Positions 1,801-11,809 of a DNA stretch of 64,000 bases are shown in pieces. The position numbers were made by a program, and so were the translations under genes. The notes beneath the pieces are model-generated. The model was not told the origin of the DNA. It saw only the letters and a program-made list of their open reading frames with translations, and made no database searches. Origin of the DNA: Mesorhizobium sp. 131-2-1 (GTDB taxonomy: Bacteria; Pseudomonadota; Alphaproteobacteria; Rhizobiales; Rhizobiaceae); contig NZ_AP023247.1 of NCBI RefSeq assembly GCF_016756535.1, positions 5,766,501 through 5,830,500 of the forward strand, given 5' to 3'. Every line of letters starts with the position of its first letter. Positions within the stretch are counted from its first letter, which is position 1.

Positions 1801-2480
1801 GTTGGCTGGACATAGGTCGGAGCGCATCATGATCTTTCAGCCCAGTTCTTTCCAAGCGCGTTGATCCGTCCACGCATCGCCTGCGTATACCGGACGTGAA
1901 AGAGAGGCGAACCATTATGCCGGTTACGGAAGTCGAACTGATCGCAAAGCTTCGCGATGCTATCGAGGCGATCCGGGACCACCTGTGGAATTGAATGATT
2001 TCAGACTTCGCGCCATTGAGGCTAGTCTGCCAAGAGATGCTCCAGCCGGCAGCGCGGAAATGGTGGCGCTAATCCTGATCTATCGAAAGACAGACAAGCG
2101 CAATGCCCAGACGTCCCGGTAGACGCTGCACGGCTTGACGACGCACTTCTCTGCAGTGATCGCGCCTTAGCTTTGGCCCGGAAACTTGCAGCAGCGTGCC
2201 GCAGGACTTCTTCGACACGCATGTGCTTCACATATACGATAAGCCCGGCTTGAGCCTTTGTCTGGCAGGCCGCTTCATGCCCCTCGGCGCCCTCCCGCGT
2301 GCTCCTGGACGTCCGCCAAAGCCGGATTGCGTATCTCCGGACTCAGGAATTTAACCGGGGCCCAGATAGCGTCCAGCGCTGCCGGGCACGTTTATGGAAA
2401 TCCACTTGTGCAGCAAAGTTGGTGCAGCGAGTGCTCATGCTACGTCAGCATATTAAACTGCCTGCTATGTAGTCTTGAGG
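1801..2480. other. Gene-poor stretch, no convincing gene
   Basis: The longest frames here are short and have no recognisable domain. A 25-codon ORF (1917-1994, beginning MPVTEVELIAKLRDAIEAIR) and an open frame ending at 2465 are visible but unsupported. The stretch separates the transposase remnant from the photolyase operon promoter. Confidence 0.5.
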
Positions 2481-2509
2481 TGATCCATACGCTTGATCGC
2501 GACGTAGAA
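2481..2509 (+). promoter_or_regulatory. RpoE/ChrR-type ECF sigma promoter for the DUF2147-photolyase-DUF2177 operon
   Basis: TGATCC at 2481-2486 and TAGAA at 2505-2509 are separated by exactly 18 bases. The same TGATCC-N18-TARAA arrangement precedes both divergent operons at the rpoE-chrR locus in this window. It resembles the Rhodobacter sphaeroides RpoE consensus (TGATCC, then TAAGA). The -10 lies 30 bases before the ATG at 2539. Confidence 0.75.
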
Positions 2510-2538
2510 TGATAAATTGTTGTGCGGAGAACTATTCG

Positions 2539-2913
2539 ATGAGAAGGATGACCGCGCTAGCGTTAACAGTGCTTGTTTCGACGACCGCGCAAGCTGATGC
2601 CTTGTCTGACGCCGGCGGTGTCTGGATGAGAGATGATGGCAATGCCCGTGTCAGAATAGCTCCATGCGGGCAAAAGCTGTGCGCAACCAATTTGTGGATT
2701 GGTGACACCAGCAAAGGCGAGGAAGTTGGCGACAGACTGGTTATGACTTTGAAGCCGAACTCCGCCAACGCCGCCAAAGGAAGTGCCTATGATCCGAAGC
2801 GAAAGCTGACTTTCTCAATGACCCTTCAGGTCGCCAGAAAAGGGTTGACGACGCGCGGTTGCATAGCCGGCGGATTGATTTGCAAGAGCACTCGTTGGAC
2901 GCCGGCACAATGA
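2539..2913 (+). CDS. DUF2147-family secreted protein
   Basis: A 124-residue protein with a clear signal peptide (MRRMTALALTVLVSTTAQA). The mature part has the DUF2147 pattern: GGVWMRDDGNARVRI near the start, a Cys pair in APCGQKLCATN, and a C-terminal CIAGGLICKSTRW. The upstream in-frame ATG at 2509 overlaps the -10 of the promoter, so the ATG at 2539 was chosen; it follows GGAGAAC. It is the first gene of an operon with photolyase (13-base gap). DUF2147 proteins are periplasmic or outer-membrane associated with unknown biochemical function. Confidence 0.85.
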   Translation: MRRMTALALTVLVSTTAQADALSDAGGVWMRDDGNARVRIAPCGQKLCATNLWIGDTSKGEEVGDRLVMTLKPNSANAAKGSAYDPKRKLTFSMTLQVARKGLTTRGCIAGGLICKSTRWTPAQ

Positions 2914-2925
2914 ACCGGCCACCCA

Positions 2926-4398
2926 ATGACCGGTAGATTAGGTTCGGCGCCGACGATCGTGCTATTCAGGCGCGACCTTCGCTTGAGCGACAACGCTGCG
3001 CTTGCGGCAGCGGTCGATCTGGGCGTGCCTCTCCTGGCGCTTTTTGTTCTCGACGAGGAGAGCGCCAATACCAGGCCTTTGGGTGCAGCAAGTCGCTGGT
3101 GGCTGCACCATTCGCTAAGCTCCCTCGCGCAAAGGCTGCAAGATTCCGGTGCAAAGCTTTTAATTGCTCGGGGCAGAACGCGCGATCTTGTCGCGAAGGC
3201 CATTGCGGCGAGCGGTGCCAATCGTGTGTTCTGGAACCGCCGATATGAGCCGGCCGCGGCGGCAGTCGACTCGGTTCTGAAGGCCGATGTTCGCGAAGCC
3301 GGACTGATCGCGCAAAGCTTCGATGGCGCGCTGCTCCACGAGCCCTCCCGGCTCAAGACTGGCTCGGGCGGCTACTACAAGGTCTACACGCCGTTTTGGA
3401 ACGCGCTGAATAGCGTGGGCGATCTGCGTGATCCGATCGATGCCCCGAAATCAATCAATGGCTGGGAGGGCAAATTCGACGGCCTGCCACTGGACCATCT
3501 CGACCTCCTTCCCAAAGCGCCCAATTGGGCAGAAGGGCTTGCAGATCGATGGACCCCTGGCGAAGCCGGCGCTCTGCAACGATTGCAGGCTTTTGAGAAT
3601 GAGGATTTGGCCGACTACGAAAACCAGCGCGATATACCCTCCGTTCAGGGCACCTCGCGCCTCTCAGCCTATTTAGCGTTCGGCGAAATCACGCCAGTTC
3701 AAATATTTGCCGCTCTGCGGCGGTCGCACAAAGCTGGGGCGGCGAAATTCCGCAAGGAAATCGGCTGGCGAGAATTCTCCTATCATCTCCTTTTTCACAA
3801 TCCTGACCTGCACGAGCAGAGCTTCCGCCCGGAATTCGAGGGTTTCACTTGGCGCCGCGACCGCCAGGCGTCGAAGGCCTGGCAAACCGGGATGACGGGT
3901 TACCCCATCGTGGATGCAGGCATGCGCGAGCTTTGGCAAACTGGGTGGATGCACAACCGCGTGCGCATGATCACTGCCTCCTTTCTCATCAAGGATCTGA
4001 TGATTGACTGGCGCGAAGGCGAGAGATGGTTCTGGGACACTCTTGTCGATGCGGACCCGGCGAACAATGCCGCAAGTTGGCAGTGGATAGCCGGATCAGG
4101 TGCGGATGCCGCGCCCTTTTTTCGAATCTTCAACCCTGTCCTTCAGGGCGAAAAGTTCGACCCGCAAGGCGACTATGTGCGCCGCTACGTCCCGGAGATC
4201 GCCGCGTTGCCCGACCGCTACATCCACCGGCCGTGGGAGGCCCCAGCGACGCTGCTAACAAATGCGAAAATCGAGCTTGGCAAGACGTACCCAAAACCCA
4301 TCGTCGATCACCGCGCTGCACGAGACAGGGCATTGATCCTCTATCAGTCAATGAAGGACAAGGCGAAAGTCTCAAGCCACGAGGAAGCAGCTTCATGA
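2926..4398 (+). CDS. phrB: Deoxyribodipyrimidine photolyase (class I CPD photolyase)
   Basis: A 490-residue photolyase/cryptochrome family protein of normal length. The N-terminal alpha/beta antenna domain opens with TIVLFRRDLRLSDNAAL. The C-terminal FAD domain contains WREFSYHLLFHNPD, TGYPIVDAGMRELWQTGWMH, NRVRMITASFLIKDL and DADPANNAASWQWIAGSGAD, the usual FAD and DNA-binding stretches. It uses blue light to split cyclobutane pyrimidine dimers. It lies second in an operon preceded by an RpoE-type promoter and overlaps the next gene by 4 bases (ATGA). Photolyase in the RpoE regulon is known from Rhodobacter, which fits this context. Confidence 0.95.
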   Translation: MTGRLGSAPTIVLFRRDLRLSDNAALAAAVDLGVPLLALFVLDEESANTRPLGAASRWWLHHSLSSLAQRLQDSGAKLLIARGRTRDLVAKAIAASGANRVFWNRRYEPAAAAVDSVLKADVREAGLIAQSFDGALLHEPSRLKTGSGGYYKVYTPFWNALNSVGDLRDPIDAPKSINGWEGKFDGLPLDHLDLLPKAPNWAEGLADRWTPGEAGALQRLQAFENEDLADYENQRDIPSVQGTSRLSAYLAFGEITPVQIFAALRRSHKAGAAKFRKEIGWREFSYHLLFHNPDLHEQSFRPEFEGFTWRRDRQASKAWQTGMTGYPIVDAGMRELWQTGWMHNRVRMITASFLIKDLMIDWREGERWFWDTLVDADPANNAASWQWIAGSGADAAPFFRIFNPVLQGEKFDPQGDYVRRYVPEIAALPDRYIHRPWEAPATLLTNAKIELGKTYPKPIVDHRAARDRALILYQSMKDKAKVSSHEEAAS

Positions 4399-4805
4399 TC
4401 CGATATGCTGTGGCCTATGCCACCACCCTGATAGTCTTCCTGGCCATCGACGCGGTCTGGCTGACGACGATGTCGCAGCGGCTCTACCGTCGCTATCTCG
4501 CGGACATATTGCTAGACAGCGTCAATCTCGTGCCGGCCGCCCTGTTCTATCTGATCTACATAGCGGGCATCATTGTCTTCGCGACCGCTCCCGCCTTATC
4601 GACCGGCAAGTGGACGACGGCGGTCGTCTTTGGCGCGCTCTATGGGTTCTTCGCCTACGCGACTTACGACCTCACCAACCAGGCCACTGTACGCGGCTGG
4701 CCGACGATCATTACGGTGGCTGATATCTGCTGGGGTTCGCTGCTCAGCGCGGTGGCGGCGGTTCTGGGGTTTCTGCTGACCCGCTATTTTCTGCGCGATT
4801 TTTGA
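4395..4805 (+). CDS. DUF2177 family membrane protein
   Basis: A 136-residue protein with four predicted membrane helices (AYATTLIVFLAIDAVWL, LVPAALFYLIYIAGIIVF, VFGALYGFFAYATYDLTN, SLLSAVAAVLGFLLTRYF). The DLTNQATVRGWP stretch and AIDAVWLTTM are typical of DUF2177. The ATG overlaps the photolyase stop by 4 bases, implying translational coupling. The 3' end overlaps the convergent membrane-protein gene by 62 bases. DUF2177 genes often sit beside photolyase and ECF sigma genes; the biochemical role is unknown. Confidence 0.9.
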   Translation: MIRYAVAYATTLIVFLAIDAVWLTTMSQRLYRRYLADILLDSVNLVPAALFYLIYIAGIIVFATAPALSTGKWTTAVVFGALYGFFAYATYDLTNQATVRGWPTIITVADICWGSLLSAVAAVLGFLLTRYFLRDF

Positions 4806-5376
4806 TTCCACGTTCCTCCGAAGTCGCGACGACGCCTGAAAGAAGCAGCCCGACAAATACGATCAATGTCGCCGCGCTCAAGGCGTTGAGCCCGACCATA
4901 CCATTGTTGTCGGAAGCGCTGTAGTCAGCCAGTGGCAGGCCGAAGAGGCGTTCAGGTATGAAGTAGGCAGCAGCGCAGAGCGCGACGACTAATAGGCCGA
5001 TTGCCCGTTCGGAAGGCCTGAACAAGGCAGCACCGATCAACGCGCATGGGACGAGGAATATCTCGACCCCCGACCCGATACCAAAGACCTTGGTGCTGAG
5101 GATGCCGTTGGCGATGCCGGTCAGAGGCAGCATGAGGCGCCCTGCTAGCGCATGCCGCCTCGCAACTGCTGGAACGGCGAGAAAGAAGGGTGTTGACAGA
5201 AATGTCAGAAAGGACGGCGCAACCTTATCGGCGCCGACAACCGCCCAGAGATAGAGCGGGTAGAATGGCTGGTTCCAGGCGACGACCAGCGCAATCCAGT
5301 TGGCGGCGCTCGTCAGAGGATCGTCGTGCGCGGCATAGACGGCGACCCGCCGCCAAAGGCGCGCGAGGCCCGCCAT
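4744..5376 (-). CDS. Hypothetical membrane protein, last gene of the rpoE-chrR operon
   Basis: A 210-residue protein with about six hydrophobic segments (for example WIALVVAWNQPFYPLYLWAV, VEIFLVPCALIGAALF, AIGLLVVALCAAAYFIP and LSAATLIVFVGLLLSGVV). I do not recognise a named family. Its ATG starts one base after the stop of the fatty acid methyltransferase, so it is probably co-transcribed with it and translationally coupled. The C-terminus (EPPPPR) reads into the end of the convergent DUF2177 gene. Context suggests a membrane stress or lipid role, which is inference only. Confidence 0.8.
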   Translation of the reverse strand: MAGLARLWRRVAVYAAHDDPLTSAANWIALVVAWNQPFYPLYLWAVVGADKVAPSFLTFLSTPFFLAVPAVARRHALAGRLMLPLTGIANGILSTKVFGIGSGVEIFLVPCALIGAALFRPSERAIGLLVVALCAAAYFIPERLFGLPLADYSASDNNGMVGLNALSAATLIVFVGLLLSGVVATSEERGIKNRAENSGSAETPEPPPPR

Positions 5377-5377
5377 G

Positions 5378-6403
5378 TCAGCTGGCCGGTCGCATCAGGT
5401 AGTGGCTGACGCCCCACTCCTTGCCCTCGGCATGGCCGAACAGGCCTTCGGTGGCGAAGTAGAACAACCGCCAGCGCCGACGCCAGAGCGACGCATCCCG
5501 GCCATAGACAGCCGAAAGGATTGCGTCGATGTGGCCGCGGTCCTCGTCGAAGCGCGCGAGCCAATCGCGCGCGGTGCGGGCGTAGTGCAGGCCGTTCCAC
5601 CGCCAGTCGCGCTCGATCGAGAAGCAATCCGGGAATTGGCTGATGAGGCCGTGGCTTGGCATTATGCCGCCAGTGAAGAAGTGTTGAGCGATCCAGTCAG
5701 CGTCATCGCGATGGTCAAAGCGATAGGGGCTATGGCGATGGCTGAAGACATGGACGAACAGCCGGCCTTCGGGCTCGAGCCAGGTTCGGATACGGGCGAG
5801 CAGGTCGCGCCAGTTGGACATGTGCTCGAACATCTCAACCGACACCACGCGATCGAACCGCGCTGACGGCTCGAATTCGTTCATGTCGGCGGTGATGACC
5901 TCAAGGTTGCCCAACCCGAGTGCTGCCGCCTCCCCCTGAATGTAAAGTCGCTGCGGAGTCGAATTCGACACCGCAACGATTCGGGCCGACGGGAAACGCC
6001 TCGCCATGTACAGCGTCAGCGAACCCCAGCCGCAGCCGAGCTCGAGGATCGACTGGCCATCGCGAAGTCCTGCGTGGTCAACGGTCTGCTCCAGCGCGGC
6101 GGTTTCCGCCTCGGCCAATGTCTCGCTGCCAGTCGCATAAAGGCAGCAGGAATACTTGCGGCGGGGACCGAGCGTCAGCGCGAAAAACTCAGGCGGCAGT
6201 TCGTAATGCTGCTCGTTGGCAGCTGCCGTATGCTCGGCTATGGAGCGGCCGGCCATGTCCTTGGCAAACCGCCCGAGATCGACCGTCGCCCCCGCCAGCC
6301 GCCGCCGTGTCCGACCAACAAGAGCCTCGATGCCGCAGCGGGTAGCGGAGTCTGGCAGCGGGACGCGCTCAACAGCGCGAATTGCGGATGCGATCAGGCT
6401 CAC
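5378..6403 (-). CDS. SAM-dependent fatty acid methyltransferase (cyclopropane-fatty-acyl-phospholipid synthase family)
   Basis: 341 residues. SAM-binding motif ILELGCGWGSLTLYMARR, followed by the family signatures RIVAVSNSTPQR, FDRVVSVEMFEHMSNW and FVHVFSHRHSPYRF. AAANEQHYELPPEFF and KYSCCLY are the usual substrate-side motifs. A TTG lies at 6418, but GTG at 6403 has AAGGAG 7 bases upstream and is the better start. It transfers a methyl or methylene group from SAM to unsaturated phospholipid acyl chains. Homologues in RpoE-ChrR regulons have been linked to cyclopropane or furan fatty acid synthesis; which product forms here cannot be told. Confidence 0.9.
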   Translation of the reverse strand: MSLIASAIRAVERVPLPDSATRCGIEALVGRTRRRLAGATVDLGRFAKDMAGRSIAEHTAAANEQHYELPPEFFALTLGPRRKYSCCLYATGSETLAEAETAALEQTVDHAGLRDGQSILELGCGWGSLTLYMARRFPSARIVAVSNSTPQRLYIQGEAAALGLGNLEVITADMNEFEPSARFDRVVSVEMFEHMSNWRDLLARIRTWLEPEGRLFVHVFSHRHSPYRFDHRDDADWIAQHFFTGGIMPSHGLISQFPDCFSIERDWRWNGLHYARTARDWLARFDEDRGHIDAILSAVYGRDASLWRRRWRLFYFATEGLFGHAEGKEWGVSHYLMRPAS

Positions 6404-6414
6404 CTTTATCTCCT

Positions 6415-7230
6415 TCAATTCGCGGCTGTCGCCTTGGACGGGCCTGGCCAGAACGCATTGACGCGCGCCTGATAGCGGCGAAATTGCTCGCCACGCGAGC
6501 GCAGCATATGAGCCTCAAGCGGTGGGATGCCCGAGACATGGACAAGCAACCAATACATCAGCACAGGGCCGGCCAGCGTGATCCATCCCCATGCATAGCG
6601 ACCCGAAGGATCGATGCCGATCACCACATAGGCAAGCCAAGCCAGCCATTCGAAGAAATAGTTGGGGTGGCGCGACAGACGCCAAAGGCCCGCATCGCAG
6701 ACCTCGCCTTTGTTGGCAGGGTTAGCACGAAATGCCGTCAGTTGCCGGTCGGCCATCGCCTCGCCGCCGATCGCCAACAGCATCAGTGCGATACCGGCCC
6801 AGTCGTTGAGTACCAAGGCCGGAGCGGGATTGTGGGCAGCCGCCCTAATCGACAGCACCAGCAGGAACGCGGCACCTGCCTGGATCTGCAGGAACCAGAA
6901 CAACCGAGCACGGAATCCGGCACCCCACTCTTGCTTGAGTTGGGCGTAGCGCGGATCGTCCTGGCCGCCGCCGGCGGTCCTCATCGCAATATGGAGTCCG
7001 AGCCTCAGCGACCAGGCGATCGCGAGAATGGCCACCAGCCACTGGCGCTGCTCGGAGTCGCCGGTCGCCGATACGGGTAGTGCCGCCAAAGCGCCGAAGA
7101 TGCCGACGGCGAATGACCAGATCGCGTCGATCCACCCGGATCGACCCGTCTTCACCGCAATATACCAGGCCGCCGCCATGGTGACCGACAAACCGACCGC
7201 GGTAAGAACTAGAGCCGAAGCGACGCTCAT
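6415..7230 (-). CDS. DUF1295 / steroid 5-alpha-reductase-like membrane protein
   Basis: 271 residues from the ATG at 7230, eight bases after the chrR stop. Multiple membrane helices. The C-terminal half carries the DUF1295 (isoprenylcysteine methyltransferase / 5-alpha reductase-like) signatures GEVCDAGLWRLSRHPNYFFE and EWLAWLAYVVIG. LGLHIAMRTAGGGQDDPRY lies upstream of it. In-frame starts further upstream lie inside chrR and were rejected. Members are frequent neighbours of CFA-type methyltransferases and may act on lipids; no reaction is established. It is in the middle of the sigma-anti-sigma operon. Confidence 0.88.
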   Translation of the reverse strand: MSVASALVLTAVGLSVTMAAAWYIAVKTGRSGWIDAIWSFAVGIFGALAALPVSATGDSEQRQWLVAILAIAWSLRLGLHIAMRTAGGGQDDPRYAQLKQEWGAGFRARLFWFLQIQAGAAFLLVLSIRAAAHNPAPALVLNDWAGIALMLLAIGGEAMADRQLTAFRANPANKGEVCDAGLWRLSRHPNYFFEWLAWLAYVVIGIDPSGRYAWGWITLAGPVLMYWLLVHVSGIPPLEAHMLRSRGEQFRRYQARVNAFWPGPSKATAAN

Positions 7231-7238
7231 GGGACGTC

Positions 7239-7883
7239 TCAGCTGCCAAGCAGAGGCTGGATCAATCGCCCGAGGAAGCCTCGCAGCCTCGTCTGCCCCT
7301 CGAGGGCGGCAATACATATGCACTCGCCGCTCTCATCGACGACTGGCTGATGCTGAACTTCGTCGTCGGCCTCATCCAGATCGCCAGGGCCGTAGCTGCC
7401 ACGCGCGTCGGAAAGCCAGCCCTTGAGCACTTGAGTGTACTCGTAGCCGGAATGTGTATGCTCGGGCATCCTGCGCCCGGCCGCCACCTTCAACAGCATG
7501 ACATTTGCGCCAGCATCTTGGGGAACCGTCACGCGACTCCAACGCACTCCGGGACCAATCCAGCGCCACGGGCCAACACCGCATCCATCCAGAGCCTCCG
7601 GCAGGGCAATGCCGATATCGGCGCGTGCCGGCCTTGCAGGTTCCTCGCGGCGTTCACCGTCCACCTCAATCCTCGCCATCAGTCGGTCCAGGGCATCTCC
7701 GCCCATTGCCTGGGGTTCCATTTCATCGAGGAGCGAGCCGCCCGTAGCTTCGAACTCCGCAATCCGTCCGGCGCAGGCTGGGCAACCGTCGATATGAACG
7801 GCCACGACGATGCGCGGTCCGGCCCCCAGGGAGCCACTGGCTTGGCGGAGCAACGTCTCGTCGCTTGGATGATGATTGATCAT
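7239..7883 (-). CDS. chrR: ChrR-family zinc anti-sigma factor
   Basis: 214 residues. The N-terminal zinc-dependent anti-sigma domain has HPSDETLLRQASGSL and HIDGCPAC, the His-Cys-Cys zinc ligands. The C-terminal half is a cupin (PEHTHSGYEYTQVLKGW, then GPGDLDEADDEVQHQP). The ATG overlaps the sigma gene stop by 4 bases (ATGA). In Rhodobacter, ChrR holds RpoE inactive until singlet oxygen or related stress triggers its release and breakdown. The gene order sigma, chrR, DUF1295, CFA methyltransferase matches that system. Confidence 0.93.
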   Translation of the reverse strand: MINHHPSDETLLRQASGSLGAGPRIVVAVHIDGCPACAGRIAEFEATGGSLLDEMEPQAMGGDALDRLMARIEVDGERREEPARPARADIGIALPEALDGCGVGPWRWIGPGVRWSRVTVPQDAGANVMLLKVAAGRRMPEHTHSGYEYTQVLKGWLSDARGSYGPGDLDEADDEVQHQPVVDESGECICIAALEGQTRLRGFLGRLIQPLLGS

Positions 7884-8461
7884 TTGAGGTCGTCCAGGAT
7901 CTGGCGAAGGCGGCTGAGAGCCAGCCGCACGCGCGATTTAACGGTGCCAAGCGGGATCCGGAGTTGGCTCGCTATTTCCGATTGAGGTTTGTCGGCGAAG
8001 AAGGATAGCCGCAAGATATCGGCCTGTTCGGGTGACAAAAGGGCAACCGCAGAGCGCACCCGTTCTTCGCGCTCTGCGGCCATCACGGCCGCCTCACCCG
8101 AAACCGGGCTTTCGGGCTCGTCCGAGGGGTCGAAGGCGCTGGCAACTGCCGCGGGCCGGCTTTCCCGGCGCAGCCGATCGATCCGCACGTTGCGGCCGAT
8201 CGTGAATATCCAAGTCGACACCCCTGCGCGCGCCGGATCGAAGTATGAGGCCTTCTTCCACACCAGCAGCATGGTTTCCTGAGCGATGTCCTCGGCGGTG
8301 GAAGCCGCCATGCCGGAGCGCATCATAAAAGCCTTCAGTCGCGGCGCGTAGAACCCGAAAAGCGTGGCAAAGGCTGCGCGATCGCGTCCCTGCGCTACCG
8401 CCGCAAGCAGACGCCTGGCTTCCTCAGCCGATAGCGCTCCCGTATCCGTGCTCATGGTCAT
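7880..8461 (-). CDS. rpoE: ECF sigma factor, RpoE/ChrR-partnered type
   Basis: 193 residues from the ATG at 8461. Region 2: AAFATLFGFYAPRLKAFMMR and AEDIAQETMLLVWKKASYFD. Region 4: LSPEQADILRLSFFADKPQS followed by EIASQLRIPLGTVKSRVRLA. A short linker of about 40 residues lies between. In-frame GTG/ATG codons upstream of 8461 overlap the promoter and were rejected. A promoter of the type this sigma group recognises (TGATCC-N18-TAAAA) lies about 80 bases upstream, so the gene probably regulates itself. The partner anti-sigma is the overlapping chrR. Confidence 0.93.
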   Translation of the reverse strand: MTMSTDTGALSAEEARRLLAAVAQGRDRAAFATLFGFYAPRLKAFMMRSGMAASTAEDIAQETMLLVWKKASYFDPARAGVSTWIFTIGRNVRIDRLRRESRPAAVASAFDPSDEPESPVSGEAAVMAAEREERVRSAVALLSPEQADILRLSFFADKPQSEIASQLRIPLGTVKSRVRLALSRLRQILDDLK

Positions 8462-8542
8462 CGCTACTTCGATCCTCGTGGGATCGAACGTCTGCGAAAC
8501 CCTGCCGGCACTGAATTCGTATCCCGATGCATCCATGCGCCT

Positions 8543-8571
8543 TTTTACGCGCGATCTGTCAGTTCGGATCA
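8543..8571 (-). promoter_or_regulatory. RpoE-type promoter of the rpoE-chrR operon
   Basis: Read on the - strand: TGATCC at 8571-8566, 18-base spacer, TAAAA at 8547-8543. It faces the sigma gene start at 8461 and would give autoregulation. Confidence 0.75.
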
Positions 8572-8597
8572 CAGCCGCGCGGCATTCCGCCTAACTG

Positions 8598-8626
8598 TGA
8601 TCCATGCCGTCCGCGGCCGCGTAGAA
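8598..8626 (+). promoter_or_regulatory. RpoE-type promoter of the FAD oxidoreductase-DUF1365 operon
   Basis: TGATCC at 8598-8603, 18-base spacer, TAGAA at 8622-8626, on the + strand, 54 bases before the ATG at 8680. It is divergent from the sigma-gene promoter, whose -35 lies 27 bases away. Confidence 0.75.
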
Positions 8627-8679
8627 GTTGAAGTTAGGGTAGAGGGGCAACCCCTTCCACTGGAAACTGGAGCATGCGC

Positions 8680-10029
8680 ATGTCGACAGCAGGCAAACGC
8701 CTGGTCACGGATCGGTCGATGGACATAGCAGTCATCGGCAGTGGGATTTCCGGACTGTCGGCGGCATGGCTGCTCGCGCAGCGCCACAACGTATCATTGT
8801 TCGAGGCGGATAACCGCCTTGGCGGCCACAGCAACACCGTCGATGCCGGCGGGACGCAGGTAGACACCGGATTCATCGTCTACAACGAGGTCACATATCC
8901 CAATCTGACGGCTCTTTTTGCCCATATTGGTGTCCGCACCAAGCCCTCCGAGATGTCCTTTGCAGTTTCGCTGGATCGCGGTCGCCTGGAATATTCCGGG
9001 ACCGGTCTGGGTGGACTTCTCGCACAGCCCGGCAATGTCGCGCGGCTCCGGTTCTGGAGCATGCTGAGGGAGTTGCTGCGCTTCTATCGCGAAGCGCCTT
9101 ATGACATTTCGCGCATCGGGGAGAGCAGCCTTGCCGAATATCTCGATGCCAAGGGCTATGGCCCAGCGTTTCGCGAGGACCATCTCTATCCGATGGCGGC
9201 CGCAATCTGGTCGACGCCGGCAGCGGAGGTCGGCAATTATCCGGCCGCGGCCTTCATTCGGTTCTGCGAAAATCACGGGCTGCTGAAGCTCGCCGGGCGC
9301 GCCGTGTGGCGCACGGTCGATGGCGGAAGCCGCAACTACGTCGACAATTTGGCTCGCCGGTTCACCGGCCGGATATTCCGTGGGCGTGGCGTGCGGTCCA
9401 TTGCGCGCCACTCTGGAGCGGCATGGCTCACCGATGTCGACGGCGTCGAACAGCGCTTCGACCAGGTGGTGGTCGCCACCCATGCCAACCAGGCGCTACG
9501 CATGCTGGCCGACGCAAGCCACGAGGAACACCAATTGCTGGGCAGTTTCGGCTACAGCCGCAACGAGGCCGTGCTGCATTCGGATCCCCGCCTCATGCCA
9601 CGCAGGAGGCGGGCCTGGTCGAGCTGGAACTACCTTGCCGAGACACGCGGTGAAACCCGCAAGCTCTCCGTGACGTATTGGATGAACAGGCTGCAGTCCC
9701 TGCCTGACCAGCAGCCGCTGTTCGTTACGCTCAACCCTGCCATTGAACCCGAGGCCCGTACCGTGAGACATAGCGAGATCTACGAGCACCCGATATTCGA
9801 CGGGGTCGCGATGCGCGCCCAGAAGAATCTCTGGTCGCTGCAAGGGGTCCGCAACACCTGGTTCTGCGGCGCATATTTCGGCGCCGGCTTTCACGAGGAC
9901 GGGCTGCAGTCCGGCCTTGCTGTCGCCGAAACACTGGGCGGTGTCCGGCGCGCTTGGGACGTTCCGGACGAATCGGGCCGCATCCATCTCCCGGCCGCTG
10001 TCGAGCGGCCTCATTACGCGGCCGCGTGA
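8680..10029 (+). CDS. FAD/NAD-binding amine-oxidase-like oxidoreductase (COG2907 type)
   Basis: 449 residues. An N-terminal dinucleotide-binding motif DIAVIGSGISGLSAAWLLAQ is followed by LFEADNRLGGHSNTV and the C-terminal GAYFGAGFHEDGLQSGLAVA. An ATG at 8674 is also in frame, but GGAG at 8668-8671 is well spaced only for 8680. First gene of the second RpoE-type operon; its stop overlaps the DUF1365 ATG by one base. Homologues beside DUF1365 and CFA genes in RpoE-ChrR regulons are thought to oxidise or desaturate phospholipid acyl chains (a desaturase of furan fatty acid synthesis was reported in Rhodobacter); the reaction here is inferred from context. Confidence 0.88.
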   Translation: MSTAGKRLVTDRSMDIAVIGSGISGLSAAWLLAQRHNVSLFEADNRLGGHSNTVDAGGTQVDTGFIVYNEVTYPNLTALFAHIGVRTKPSEMSFAVSLDRGRLEYSGTGLGGLLAQPGNVARLRFWSMLRELLRFYREAPYDISRIGESSLAEYLDAKGYGPAFREDHLYPMAAAIWSTPAAEVGNYPAAAFIRFCENHGLLKLAGRAVWRTVDGGSRNYVDNLARRFTGRIFRGRGVRSIARHSGAAWLTDVDGVEQRFDQVVVATHANQALRMLADASHEEHQLLGSFGYSRNEAVLHSDPRLMPRRRRAWSSWNYLAETRGETRKLSVTYWMNRLQSLPDQQPLFVTLNPAIEPEARTVRHSEIYEHPIFDGVAMRAQKNLWSLQGVRNTWFCGAYFGAGFHEDGLQSGLAVAETLGGVRRAWDVPDESGRIHLPAAVERPHYAAA

Positions 10030-10853
10030 TGCTCCATCCGCAATCAGCCCTTTATGCCGGCAAGGTCATGCACCAACGGCTGAAGCCGCGCCGGCACAGG
10101 CTGTCCTACCGCATGTTCTTCCTGCTGCTCGACCTCGACGAGATCGACAATCTGGCGGCGAGGCTGCGGCTCTTTTCGCGCAATCGATTCAATTTCTTCG
10201 GTTTTGTCGACCGTGACCATGGCGATGGCTCCGGCGGGTCGCTCAAGGCCTATGTCGAACGTCAGCTCGATCTGGCCGGTATCGAAACGGACGGTGGACC
10301 TGTGCGGCTGCTGGCGATGCCGCGGATGCTCGGATATGCCTTCAATCCGCTAAGCATATATTTCTGCTACCGCCGCCAGGGCGGGCTCGCCGCCATCTTG
10401 TACGAGGTCAACAATACATTTGGCGAGCGTCACACCTATCTAATCCCTGTCGAGGATTGCGAAGGCAAAGGCCCCGTCGAGCAGCATTGCGCCAAGCGCC
10501 TCTACGTCTCGCCCTTCATCGGCATGAGCATGCAATATCGTTTTCGGATTGGCCCGCCCGAGGAGAGCGTATCGCTCCACATAACCGGCAGCGACGGCCA
10601 GGGGCCGCTGATCGTCGCCAGCTTCTCTGGTAGGCGGCGTGCGCTCACCGACGCAACGCTGGCGGGCGCCTTCCTGGCCTATCCGCTGCTGACGGTGAAA
10701 GTCATCGCCGGCATTCATTGGGAGGCGCTGCGCCTCTGGGCGAAAGGCATGCGGCTGTATGAGCGTCCAGCCCCGCCTGACCGTCCTGTCGCCCATGTCG
10801 CCATGCACAAACGTTCTCAGAGGAAGACCGAATCAGATGTCATCGGATACTGA
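10029..10853 (+). CDS. DUF1365 family protein
   Basis: 274 residues starting MLHPQSALYAGKVMHQRLKP, with the family signatures RLSYRMFFLLLDLDEID, MPRMLGYAFNPLSIYFCYR and KRLYVSPFIGMSMQYRF. The ATG overlaps the stop of the FAD oxidoreductase (TGATG), so the two are co-translated. DUF1365 proteins accompany COG2907 oxidoreductases and CFA-type methyltransferases in stress-controlled lipid operons, but no activity is assigned. It overlaps the decayed methyltransferase start by 17 bases. Confidence 0.9.
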   Translation: MLHPQSALYAGKVMHQRLKPRRHRLSYRMFFLLLDLDEIDNLAARLRLFSRNRFNFFGFVDRDHGDGSGGSLKAYVERQLDLAGIETDGGPVRLLAMPRMLGYAFNPLSIYFCYRRQGGLAAILYEVNNTFGERHTYLIPVEDCEGKGPVEQHCAKRLYVSPFIGMSMQYRFRIGPPEESVSLHITGSDGQGPLIVASFSGRRRALTDATLAGAFLAYPLLTVKVIAGIHWEALRLWAKGMRLYERPAPPDRPVAHVAMHKRSQRKTESDVIGY

Positions 10854-11219
10854 AAGCGGGGCCAAAGCCGACCTTCGGAAGGGCATTTTCGTTGGCCCGA
10901 TCCTGAAGCCGCTGCTCAGCTGCCTGAAGACGGGCGAGATCACCGTTGGCACGCCAAATGGTGCGACACTCGATTATCAGACCGGCAGGCCTGGCCACCG
11001 AAGCGGCGTCGCTTTCGCCGAAGCGTATGTACATGGATCGTGACTGGTCTAGCCCCGATCTACCAGCGCTGCTCGAGCCTGCCGCATTCAACTTGTATGA
11101 GATCGAGCATACGATATCCGGGCTGATGCCGGTAAGACTGAAACCGCCGGCGCCATGTGCTGCACGCCAACAGCCGCCGCGATAGCCGGCGAGGTAGCTG
11201 GCGAAACATTGCCTATCAC
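10837..11219 (+). pseudogene. Decayed second CFA-family methyltransferase (N-terminal fragment only)
   Basis: The reading frame starts with MSSDTESGAKADLRKGIFVG after a good ribosome site (AGAGGAAG) and continues as a CFA-synthase N-terminus up to GVAFAEAYVHG, then meets a stop at 11041. Family sequence resumes in another frame as YMDRDWSSPDLPALLEPAAF, then in a third as HANSRRDSRRGSWRNIAYH, and ends there. The SAM-binding catalytic domain is entirely missing. At least two frameshifts plus a large 3' deletion. It is the third gene of the RpoE-type operon, where an intact methyltransferase is expected by comparison with related clusters. Confidence 0.8.
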
Positions 11220-11329: not shown

Positions 11330-11809
11330 ATGCCGAAAGAATTAGCTGAAATGCTTCTTGCTTTCCTCCCCGTCGCGGCTGCAGCAGTTGCCGGGAGCCT
11401 AGCTACGAGACCGGGCCTCTCAACATGGTATCCCCGACTCCAGAAGCCGAGTTTCAATCCCCCGAACGCTGTATTCGCTCCAGTATGGTCACTTCTCTAC
11501 CTTCTGATGGCCTACGCTTTTTATCGTGTGCTGAAAACCGGTATATCCTGGACTAGCGAAACGGTATTGGTTTTTTTGCTACAACTATTCCTGAATTCGT
11601 CTTGGTCCGTGGTTTTTTTTGGACTTCGGTGTATTCTATGCGCATTATTTTTAGTAGAAATACTGTTAGTTTTTATTGGCATATCGATGTTTTTATTTTG
11701 GAAAGTAGATCTTACCGCTGGCGTTTTACTCATCCCATACTTTATTTGGGTGAGTTTCGCTAACATTCTCAATTTGCAGATATGGAAGCTCAACCGCGCG
11801 TATTTATAG
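11330..11809 (+). CDS. tspO: TspO/MBR family membrane protein
   Basis: 159 residues, five membrane helices, with the family pattern PGLSTWYPRLQKPSFNPPNA, VFAPVWSLLYLLMAYAFYRV and LNSSWSVVFFGL. It binds porphyrins or related ligands in the membrane; in Rhodobacter it links oxygen/porphyrin status to gene expression. AGGATT precedes the ATG. From about 11560 to 11810 the base composition is far more AT-rich than its surroundings (runs such as GGTTTTTTTTGG), and hydrophobic codons are T-rich, which suggests recent acquisition. It follows the RpoE-type operon by about 110 bases; no separate RpoE-type promoter was seen. Confidence 0.92.
   Translation: MPKELAEMLLAFLPVAAAAVAGSLATRPGLSTWYPRLQKPSFNPPNAVFAPVWSLLYLLMAYAFYRVLKTGISWTSETVLVFLLQLFLNSSWSVVFFGLRCILCALFLVEILLVFIGISMFLFWKVDLTAGVLLIPYFIWVSFANILNLQIWKLNRAYL

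Follow-up and report, generated by a model that had tools for sequence, protein, structure and literature searches.

Gene content of the locus

We analyzed a window of 64,000 nucleotides from Mesorhizobium sp. 131-2-1 (contig NZ_AP023247.1, positions 5,766,501 to 5,830,500 of the forward strand) that encodes an extracytoplasmic function (ECF) sigma factor, RpoE, and its anti-sigma factor, ChrR, and that carries three promoter sites of one type, each in front of an operon. The first operon contains a DUF2147 gene, the photolyase gene phr and a DUF2177 gene. The second contains rpoE and chrR, followed by genes for a DUF1295 protein, a CMAS-type methyltransferase (CMAS1) and a membrane protein, while the third contains ufaD and ufaO. 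This gene order is as described by an earlier sequence-only reading of the same DNA by a model; its operon listing was correct in order and omitted a remnant of ufaM, the tspO gene and a 62-bp gene overlap. The window genes other than rpoE and chrR were named with Pfam and NCBIfam, and all features are collected in Table 1.

The best match of the window RpoE among solved structures is R. sphaeroides RpoE (2q1z_A, E = 6.6e-42), and the next best has an E value of 1.8e-18. Similarly, ChrR matches R. sphaeroides ChrR (2z2s) with E = 1.5e-31 and keeps the HxxxCxxC and cupin HxH..E..H residues, which we take to be the zinc ligands. Same-genus proteins carry the name Mesorhizobium (M. hawassense, M. 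intechi, M. terrae), in line with the rhizobial origin proposed earlier. Collectively, the likeness of RpoE and ChrR to the solved R. sphaeroides pair, the refined promoter motif and its conservation in relatives bear out the proposal of one RpoE/ChrR-type regulon, and we are highly confident that these loci form a photo-oxidative stress regulon of the ECF11 RpoE-ChrR type in a Mesorhizobium.

Table 1. Genes and promoter sites of the RpoE-ChrR locus (window coordinates)
Feature	Position	Strand	Basis or remark
ECF11 promoter TGATCC-N16-CGTAGAA of DUF2147-phr-DUF2177 operon	2481..2509	+	TGATCC, spacer 18 and CGTA kept in 14/14 close relatives
DUF2147 protein	2539..2913	+	PF09917, 50.5 bits; N-terminus resembles a signal peptide by eye
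DNA photolyase (phr)	2926..4398	+	PF03441, 307 bits; PF00875, 156 bits
DUF2177 membrane protein	4395..4805	+	PF09945, 149 bits
Membrane protein, last gene of rpoE operon	4744..5376	-	Weak PF20967 MASE7, below cut-off
CMAS-type S-adenosylmethionine methyltransferase (CMAS1), FufM candidate	5378..6418	-	PF02353, 145 bits; 32% to UfaM over 241 aa
DUF1295 membrane protein	6415..7230	-	PF06966, 227 bits
ChrR anti-sigma factor, zinc anti-sigma domain and cupin	7239..7883	-	TIGR02451, 237 bits against a cut-off of 124.5
RpoE, ECF11 sigma factor	7880..8536	-	Best solved relative R. sphaeroides RpoE; start codon probably 8536
rpoE-chrR promoter TGATCC-N16-CGTAAAA	8543..8571	-	ATG begins 7 nt past its end
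ufaD-ufaO promoter TGATCC-N16-CGTAGAA	8598..8626	+	Divergent from rpoE promoter, 26 bp apart
UfaD-like flavin adenine dinucleotide oxidoreductase	8674..10029	+	PF01593/PF13450; 44% to Cereibacter johrii gene beside its rpoE-chrR
UfaO-like DUF1365 protein	10029..10853	+	PF07103, 280 bits; 38% to C. johrii neighbor
Decayed ufaM	10837..11219	+	Aligns in more than one frame inside residues 1-154 of a 421-aa relative; no match to the rest
TspO/MBR protein (tspO), 3' of ufaD-ufaO	11330..11809	+	PF03073, 141 bits

Promoter motif and its conservation

A pattern search of the window for TGATCC-N18-TARAA, the motif of the sequence-only reading, returned 2481-2509 (+), 8571-8543 (-) and 8598-8626 (+) with a spacer of 18 in all three, as claimed. 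The claimed rarity by chance (about 0.1 expected matches per 64 kb) also stands: dinucleotide shuffles of the window gave a mean of 0.04 matches, and three or more matches occurred in 0 of 100 shuffles. Moreover, the genome-wide search proposed at the time found exactly these three sites in 7,108,569 bases on two contigs, and none for the reversed pattern. Allowing one mismatch made the genome search uninformative (77 matches vs 35 in the reversed control).

The description of the motif itself was revised. The three promoters had been called identical; TGATCC and the spacer are indeed the same, whereas the −10 half reads TAGAA, TAAAA and TAGAA. As a −10 element, TARAA asks too much of the right-hand bases; it also leaves out the CG before them, which makes it unspecific in other genomes. 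The three window sites share TGATCC-N16-CGTARAA, and the core kept in relatives is TGATCC-N16-CGTA. Across 15 Mesorhizobium loci (the window and 14 close relatives, L128-L141), the promoters of DUF2147, rpoE and ufaD keep TGATCC, the spacer of 18 and CGTA in 45 of 45 cases, while the last three bases vary (GAA, ACA, CAA, AGA, AAA, TAA) and the rpoE promoter ends in CGTAACA in 13 of the 15 loci. Of 41 Rhizobiaceae loci, 40 have a TGATCC-N16-CGTA promoter in front of rpoE; the exception is L158, whose rpoE an identity filter had kept out of the locus-by-locus promoter comparison. Several outer loci (L145, L158, L160 and L162-L165) have a weak ufaD promoter or none.

The same core has been published for other ECF11 systems; here and below, comparisons with the literature draw on parts of the cited papers. 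The consensus is TGATCC-N16-CGTA for PSPTO_1043 of P. syringae (PMC5507510) and TGATCC(N15)GCGTA for R. sphaeroides (PMC5036791), and in Shewanella TGATCC is combined with CGTATT or CGTAAT at mapped starts (PMC4336711). Chromatin immunoprecipitation sequencing (ChIP-seq) and start-site mapping back the consensus in these systems.

Furan-fatty-acid genes and the fate of ufaM

In R. sphaeroides, UfaD (RSP1091) desaturates and UfaO (RSP1090, DUF1365) oxygenates methylated acyl chains to form furan fatty acids (PMC7380195). The window encodes adjacent orthologues of both, related to the C. johrii neighbors of rpoE-chrR. The lipid modification proposed earlier therefore holds and becomes specific as UfaD/UfaO of furan-fatty-acid synthesis, although the decayed ufaM had been overlooked. 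The core ECF11 targets phr, ufaD and ufaO lie under the promoter, and of the in-operon ufaM (cfa) only broken frames remain in the window. In contrast, an intact UfaM gene directly follows ufaO in 7 of the 14 close relatives, as in Rhodopseudomonas palustris, where ufaD-ufaO are adjacent as RPA2571-2570 and ufaM is third (RPA2569). Shorter remnants occur in L134, L130 and L128, and there is no ufaM match after ufaO in L129, L139, L140 and L141.

We searched for UfaM in the 27 genus genomes that have full ChrR. The ufaD-ufaO cluster is present in 19 of them, ten with an intact in-cluster ufaM and nine without. A UfaM-type paralogue elsewhere in the genome (about 48% identical) was found in all nine cluster genomes without ufaM and in two of the ten with it; one of these two copies is intact, and the other has an in-frame stop (G216). 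For the relation between ufaM and the paralogue, the Fisher p value is 1.2e-4 with intact copies and 7e-4 with any copy, among related genomes and uncorrected for kinship. A tree of the cluster proteins themselves places losses of ufaM on three or more branches. The sister pair shows the contrast most directly, since G168 (M. intechi) has a decayed ufaM and an intact paralogue, whereas G216 has an intact ufaM and the interrupted paralogue. This reciprocal loss of two methylases amounts to a natural experiment on the source of the pathway substrate. Genus-wide, the paralogue occurs in at least 84 of 146 genomes (one copy is cut by a contig end), and outside the 19 cluster genomes in at least 73 of 127; these counts used at most the best 12 candidates per genome, and absences are less certain than in the 27-genome search.

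The paralogue of the window genome (C1:3729122-3730300) shows 48% to C. johrii UfaM, whose gene adjoins phr, and 48% to in-cluster UfaM. All three proteins score below every NCBIfam cyclopropane-synthase cut-off, while a third gene at C1:4825 kb exceeds one (684 vs 600). In the tree, the paralogue, in-cluster UfaM and Cereibacter UfaM stand apart from the C1:4825 kb synthase and from CMAS1, which appears as a divergent CMAS. In M. onobrychidis, the major fatty acids include C19:0 cyclo and 11-methyl C18:1 w7c (PMC9603459), the latter being of the UfaM product type. We therefore favor, with fair confidence, the prediction that the unlinked UfaM-type gene supplies the 11-methylated chain, the first step of the pathway. 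Several points weigh against it. The pattern of ufaM and paralogue rests on related genomes; neither gene was found in 54 other genus members, with at most the best 12 candidates per genome considered; and the tree gives weak support for placing the paralogue with Cereibacter UfaM, as for the branching order among UfaM types (0.56).

Alternatively, the regulon may be the same and its furan-fatty-acid branch dead, leaving UfaD and UfaO without substrate and heading for loss, or acting on another lipid. The window ufaM is clearly broken and the genome search found no TGATCC-N16-CGTANNA site near the unlinked paralogue, as this explanation would have it; however, ufaD and ufaO each give one uninterrupted tblastn match in all nine genomes without in-cluster ufaM, the same nine genomes all have the paralogue, and a lipid of the UfaM product type is abundant in M. 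onobrychidis. A dead branch thus seems doubtful, at a probability that still deserves attention.

Position of the rpoE start codon

In the window, the probable start ATG of rpoE lies just past the −10 element of its own promoter. Among the 40 Rhizobiaceae rpoE promoters, an ATG stands at +7 (26 loci) or +8 (4 loci) past the −10, and all 30 are in frame with rpoE and free of stops. For comparison, we used Rhodobacter-type loci: among 136 proteins related to R. sphaeroides ChrR the best 80 were kept, and some of their loci are cut by contig ends; rpoE lies near chrR in 78 of the 80, which were used, and no site was found in L268 and L276. Here the ATG is at +6 in 69 of 77 promoters (65 in frame and stop-free), at +7 in three and at +8 in one. 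Combined, 103 of 117 rpoE promoters (L128-L167, L204-L283 and the window, 8536) have an ATG at +6 to +8, vs 3 of 98 in front of ufaD at these loci (0/26 and 3/72). The DUF2147 promoters, a second control, have one in 1 of 22. Two of the ten Rhizobiaceae exceptions, L144 and L155, carry the second ChrR type and by eye have their first ATG at +64, which fits an ordinary leader.

These positions predict, with good confidence, that the rpoE message starts at its AUG and is thus leaderless. Two findings speak against this. The N-terminal tails of RpoE vary nearly equally at all codon positions, with no clear coding-like bias, and our confidence was lowered because this test did not back coding constraint. 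In addition, an ATG just past the rpoE −10 is missing from C. johrii and L. azotoformans; the window differs from R. sphaeroides in its rpoE AUG right after the promoter, which is absent in the sister species C. johrii. Both findings would fit a reading in which translation of rpoE begins farther downstream, behind an ordinary leader, and the AUG past the −10 is unused, but such an arrangement would hardly account for an ATG in 103 of the rpoE promoters and in three of the ufaD promoters, or for its open frame in 30/30 Rhizobiaceae and 65/69 of the +6 Rhodobacter-type loci. We consider a downstream start unlikely.

We found no report of a leaderless ECF11 rpoE in the open-access papers searched. 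In S. meliloti, 171 leaderless transcripts have been described (PMC3616915), and the word ChrR is absent from the main text of that paper. If rpoE is leaderless, translation of an autoregulated sigma factor would be tied to ribosome states that favor leaderless messages. More broadly, we lean slightly toward a combined view, in which a leaderless rpoE, with its AUG at the start set by its own RpoE promoter, would be typical of alphaproteobacterial ECF11 systems and would have stayed hidden because the R. sphaeroides lineage lost or never had the AUG, and in which an unregulated paralogue in Mesorhizobium would repeatedly have taken over the ufaM step, so that substrate supply would no longer be coupled to the stress switch.

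Distribution of the motif and proposed regulon

Full ChrR is found in 27 of 146 genus genomes and 68 of 151 family genomes. TGATCC-N18-TARAA matches in 121 and 110 of these genomes, respectively, and a match to it alone therefore says little. The refined TGATCC-N16-CGTARAA occurs in 29 of the 146 genus genomes, with 49 matches listed vs 3 for the reversed control. Genomes with full ChrR have it in 18 of 27 cases, those without in 11 of 119 (Fisher p 1.5e-9, related genomes, not tree-corrected), and 32 of the 49 listed sites lie within 10 kb of chrR. That the sites instead serve another ECF sigma factor, such as one of the general stress EcfG type, with rpoE-chrR nearby by coincidence, is very improbable, because the motif tracks chrR and equals the ECF11 consensus mapped elsewhere, even though other ECF sigma factors are probably encoded in the genome and 11 genomes without full ChrR still have the CGTARAA site.

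Some observations count against the assignment to a photo-oxidative RpoE-ChrR regulon. Nine of the 27 ChrR-bearing genus genomes have no CGTARAA site, and many genomes with a TARAA match have no ChrR. Furthermore, ECF11 systems respond to peroxides too, so the signal is not readable from sequence (PMC6852236, PMC5036791), and the expression and 5' ends of the operons are predictions from sequence. Singlet oxygen is the signal that we infer from the anatomy of ChrR and the literature.

In the proposed mechanism, ChrR would keep RpoE inactive until singlet oxygen or related oxidants remove it, by analogy with R. sphaeroides. The freed RpoE would then transcribe its own operon (autoactivation), ufaD-ufaO from the back-to-back promoter, and, 6 kb away, the photolyase operon, the 3' end of which overlaps the rpoE operon. 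The photolyase would repair DNA, while the desaturase UfaD and the oxygenase UfaO, with functions assigned by orthology, would turn methylated vaccenoyl chains into furan fatty acids. The core regulon reportedly goes back to Dufour 2008, according to papers that cite it. It comprises about eight genes, including furan-fatty-acid genes, in phototrophs and non-phototrophs (PMC6852236), so the window system belongs to an already known kind. Our analysis places a testable photo-oxidative regulon and furan-fatty-acid enzymes in a nodulating genus.

Similar to R. sphaeroides, the window combines related sigma and ChrR proteins and TGATCC-N16-CGTA promoters with a photolyase target, and rpoE-chrR is divergent from ufaD-ufaO (RSP1091-1090). 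The back-to-back arrangement with promoter sites also occurs in its close kin Cereibacter johrii and Luteovulum azotoformans; ufaD was found by tblastn in 75 and ufaO in 73 of the 80 Rhodobacter-type loci. In contrast, ufaM of R. sphaeroides is RpoE-controlled beside phrA, and in the window the DUF1295, CMAS1 and membrane-protein genes are part of the rpoE operon. Compared with the UfaM-UfaD-UfaO(-FufM) pathway of R. sphaeroides and R. palustris, the window offers in CMAS1 only a candidate for FufM. The PSPTO_1043 regulon of P. syringae has the same consensus, a photolyase-lipid operon and a glyoxalase target (PSPTO_3893), for which the window genome has a possible counterpart (see below), but it contains more targets, including katG, in another gene order.

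Further candidate targets and neighboring features

The set of three sites proved incomplete, since TARAA demands more than the real −10 does. With TGATCC-N16-CGTANNA the genome search returned six sites, and the reversed control none. Besides the three in the window, these are two divergent sites, C1:5750405(-) and C1:5750468(+), and C1:6626099, which stands alone. The divergent sites (L171 8406-8497, corresponding to G000:C1:5750405-5750496) are found 16 kb to the left of the window; the right-hand one, C1:5750468 (+), faces a glyoxalase-family gene (PF00903). In P. syringae, overexpression of the sigma factor raised PSPTO_3893, which has this promoter, 107-fold (PMC5507510), which makes the glyoxalase gene a credible further target. 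The lone site (TGATCC..CGTACCA) was judged probably a chance match, as was window site 1862-1890 (+), TGATCC-N16-CGTATAC, which no clear gene follows.

For tspO itself the window has no site, and our guess is that the gene may be co-transcribed with ufaD-ufaO. Four related loci have a tspO match, and three of them (L133 14844, L137 4304 and L148 2682, but not L132) carry a TGATCC-N16-CGTA site upstream of the gene, which suggests membership of TspO in the regulon.

The photolyase and rpoE operons run toward each other and meet at 4744-4805, where the DUF2177 gene (end 4805) and the membrane-protein gene (end 4744) overlap tail to tail by 62 bp; the induced transcripts may therefore be antisense to each other. 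All 14 close relatives have the membrane protein, with the match in L140 split in two. At 6753-8415 of L140 (G179), the matches to CMAS1 and to the membrane-protein gene are both fragmented into several pieces, so both genes look broken. For three flanking window proteins, no close match was found beside the cluster in other loci, where only two weak histidine-kinase matches of 27-28% appeared. Full ChrR is patchy in the genus, and the cluster is plasmid-borne in M. terrae, where a plasmid of 293.6 kb (293,638 bases; G290:C1) carries two copies, L146 and L148; in the second copy, rpoE, ufaO and CMAS1 each match in two pieces.

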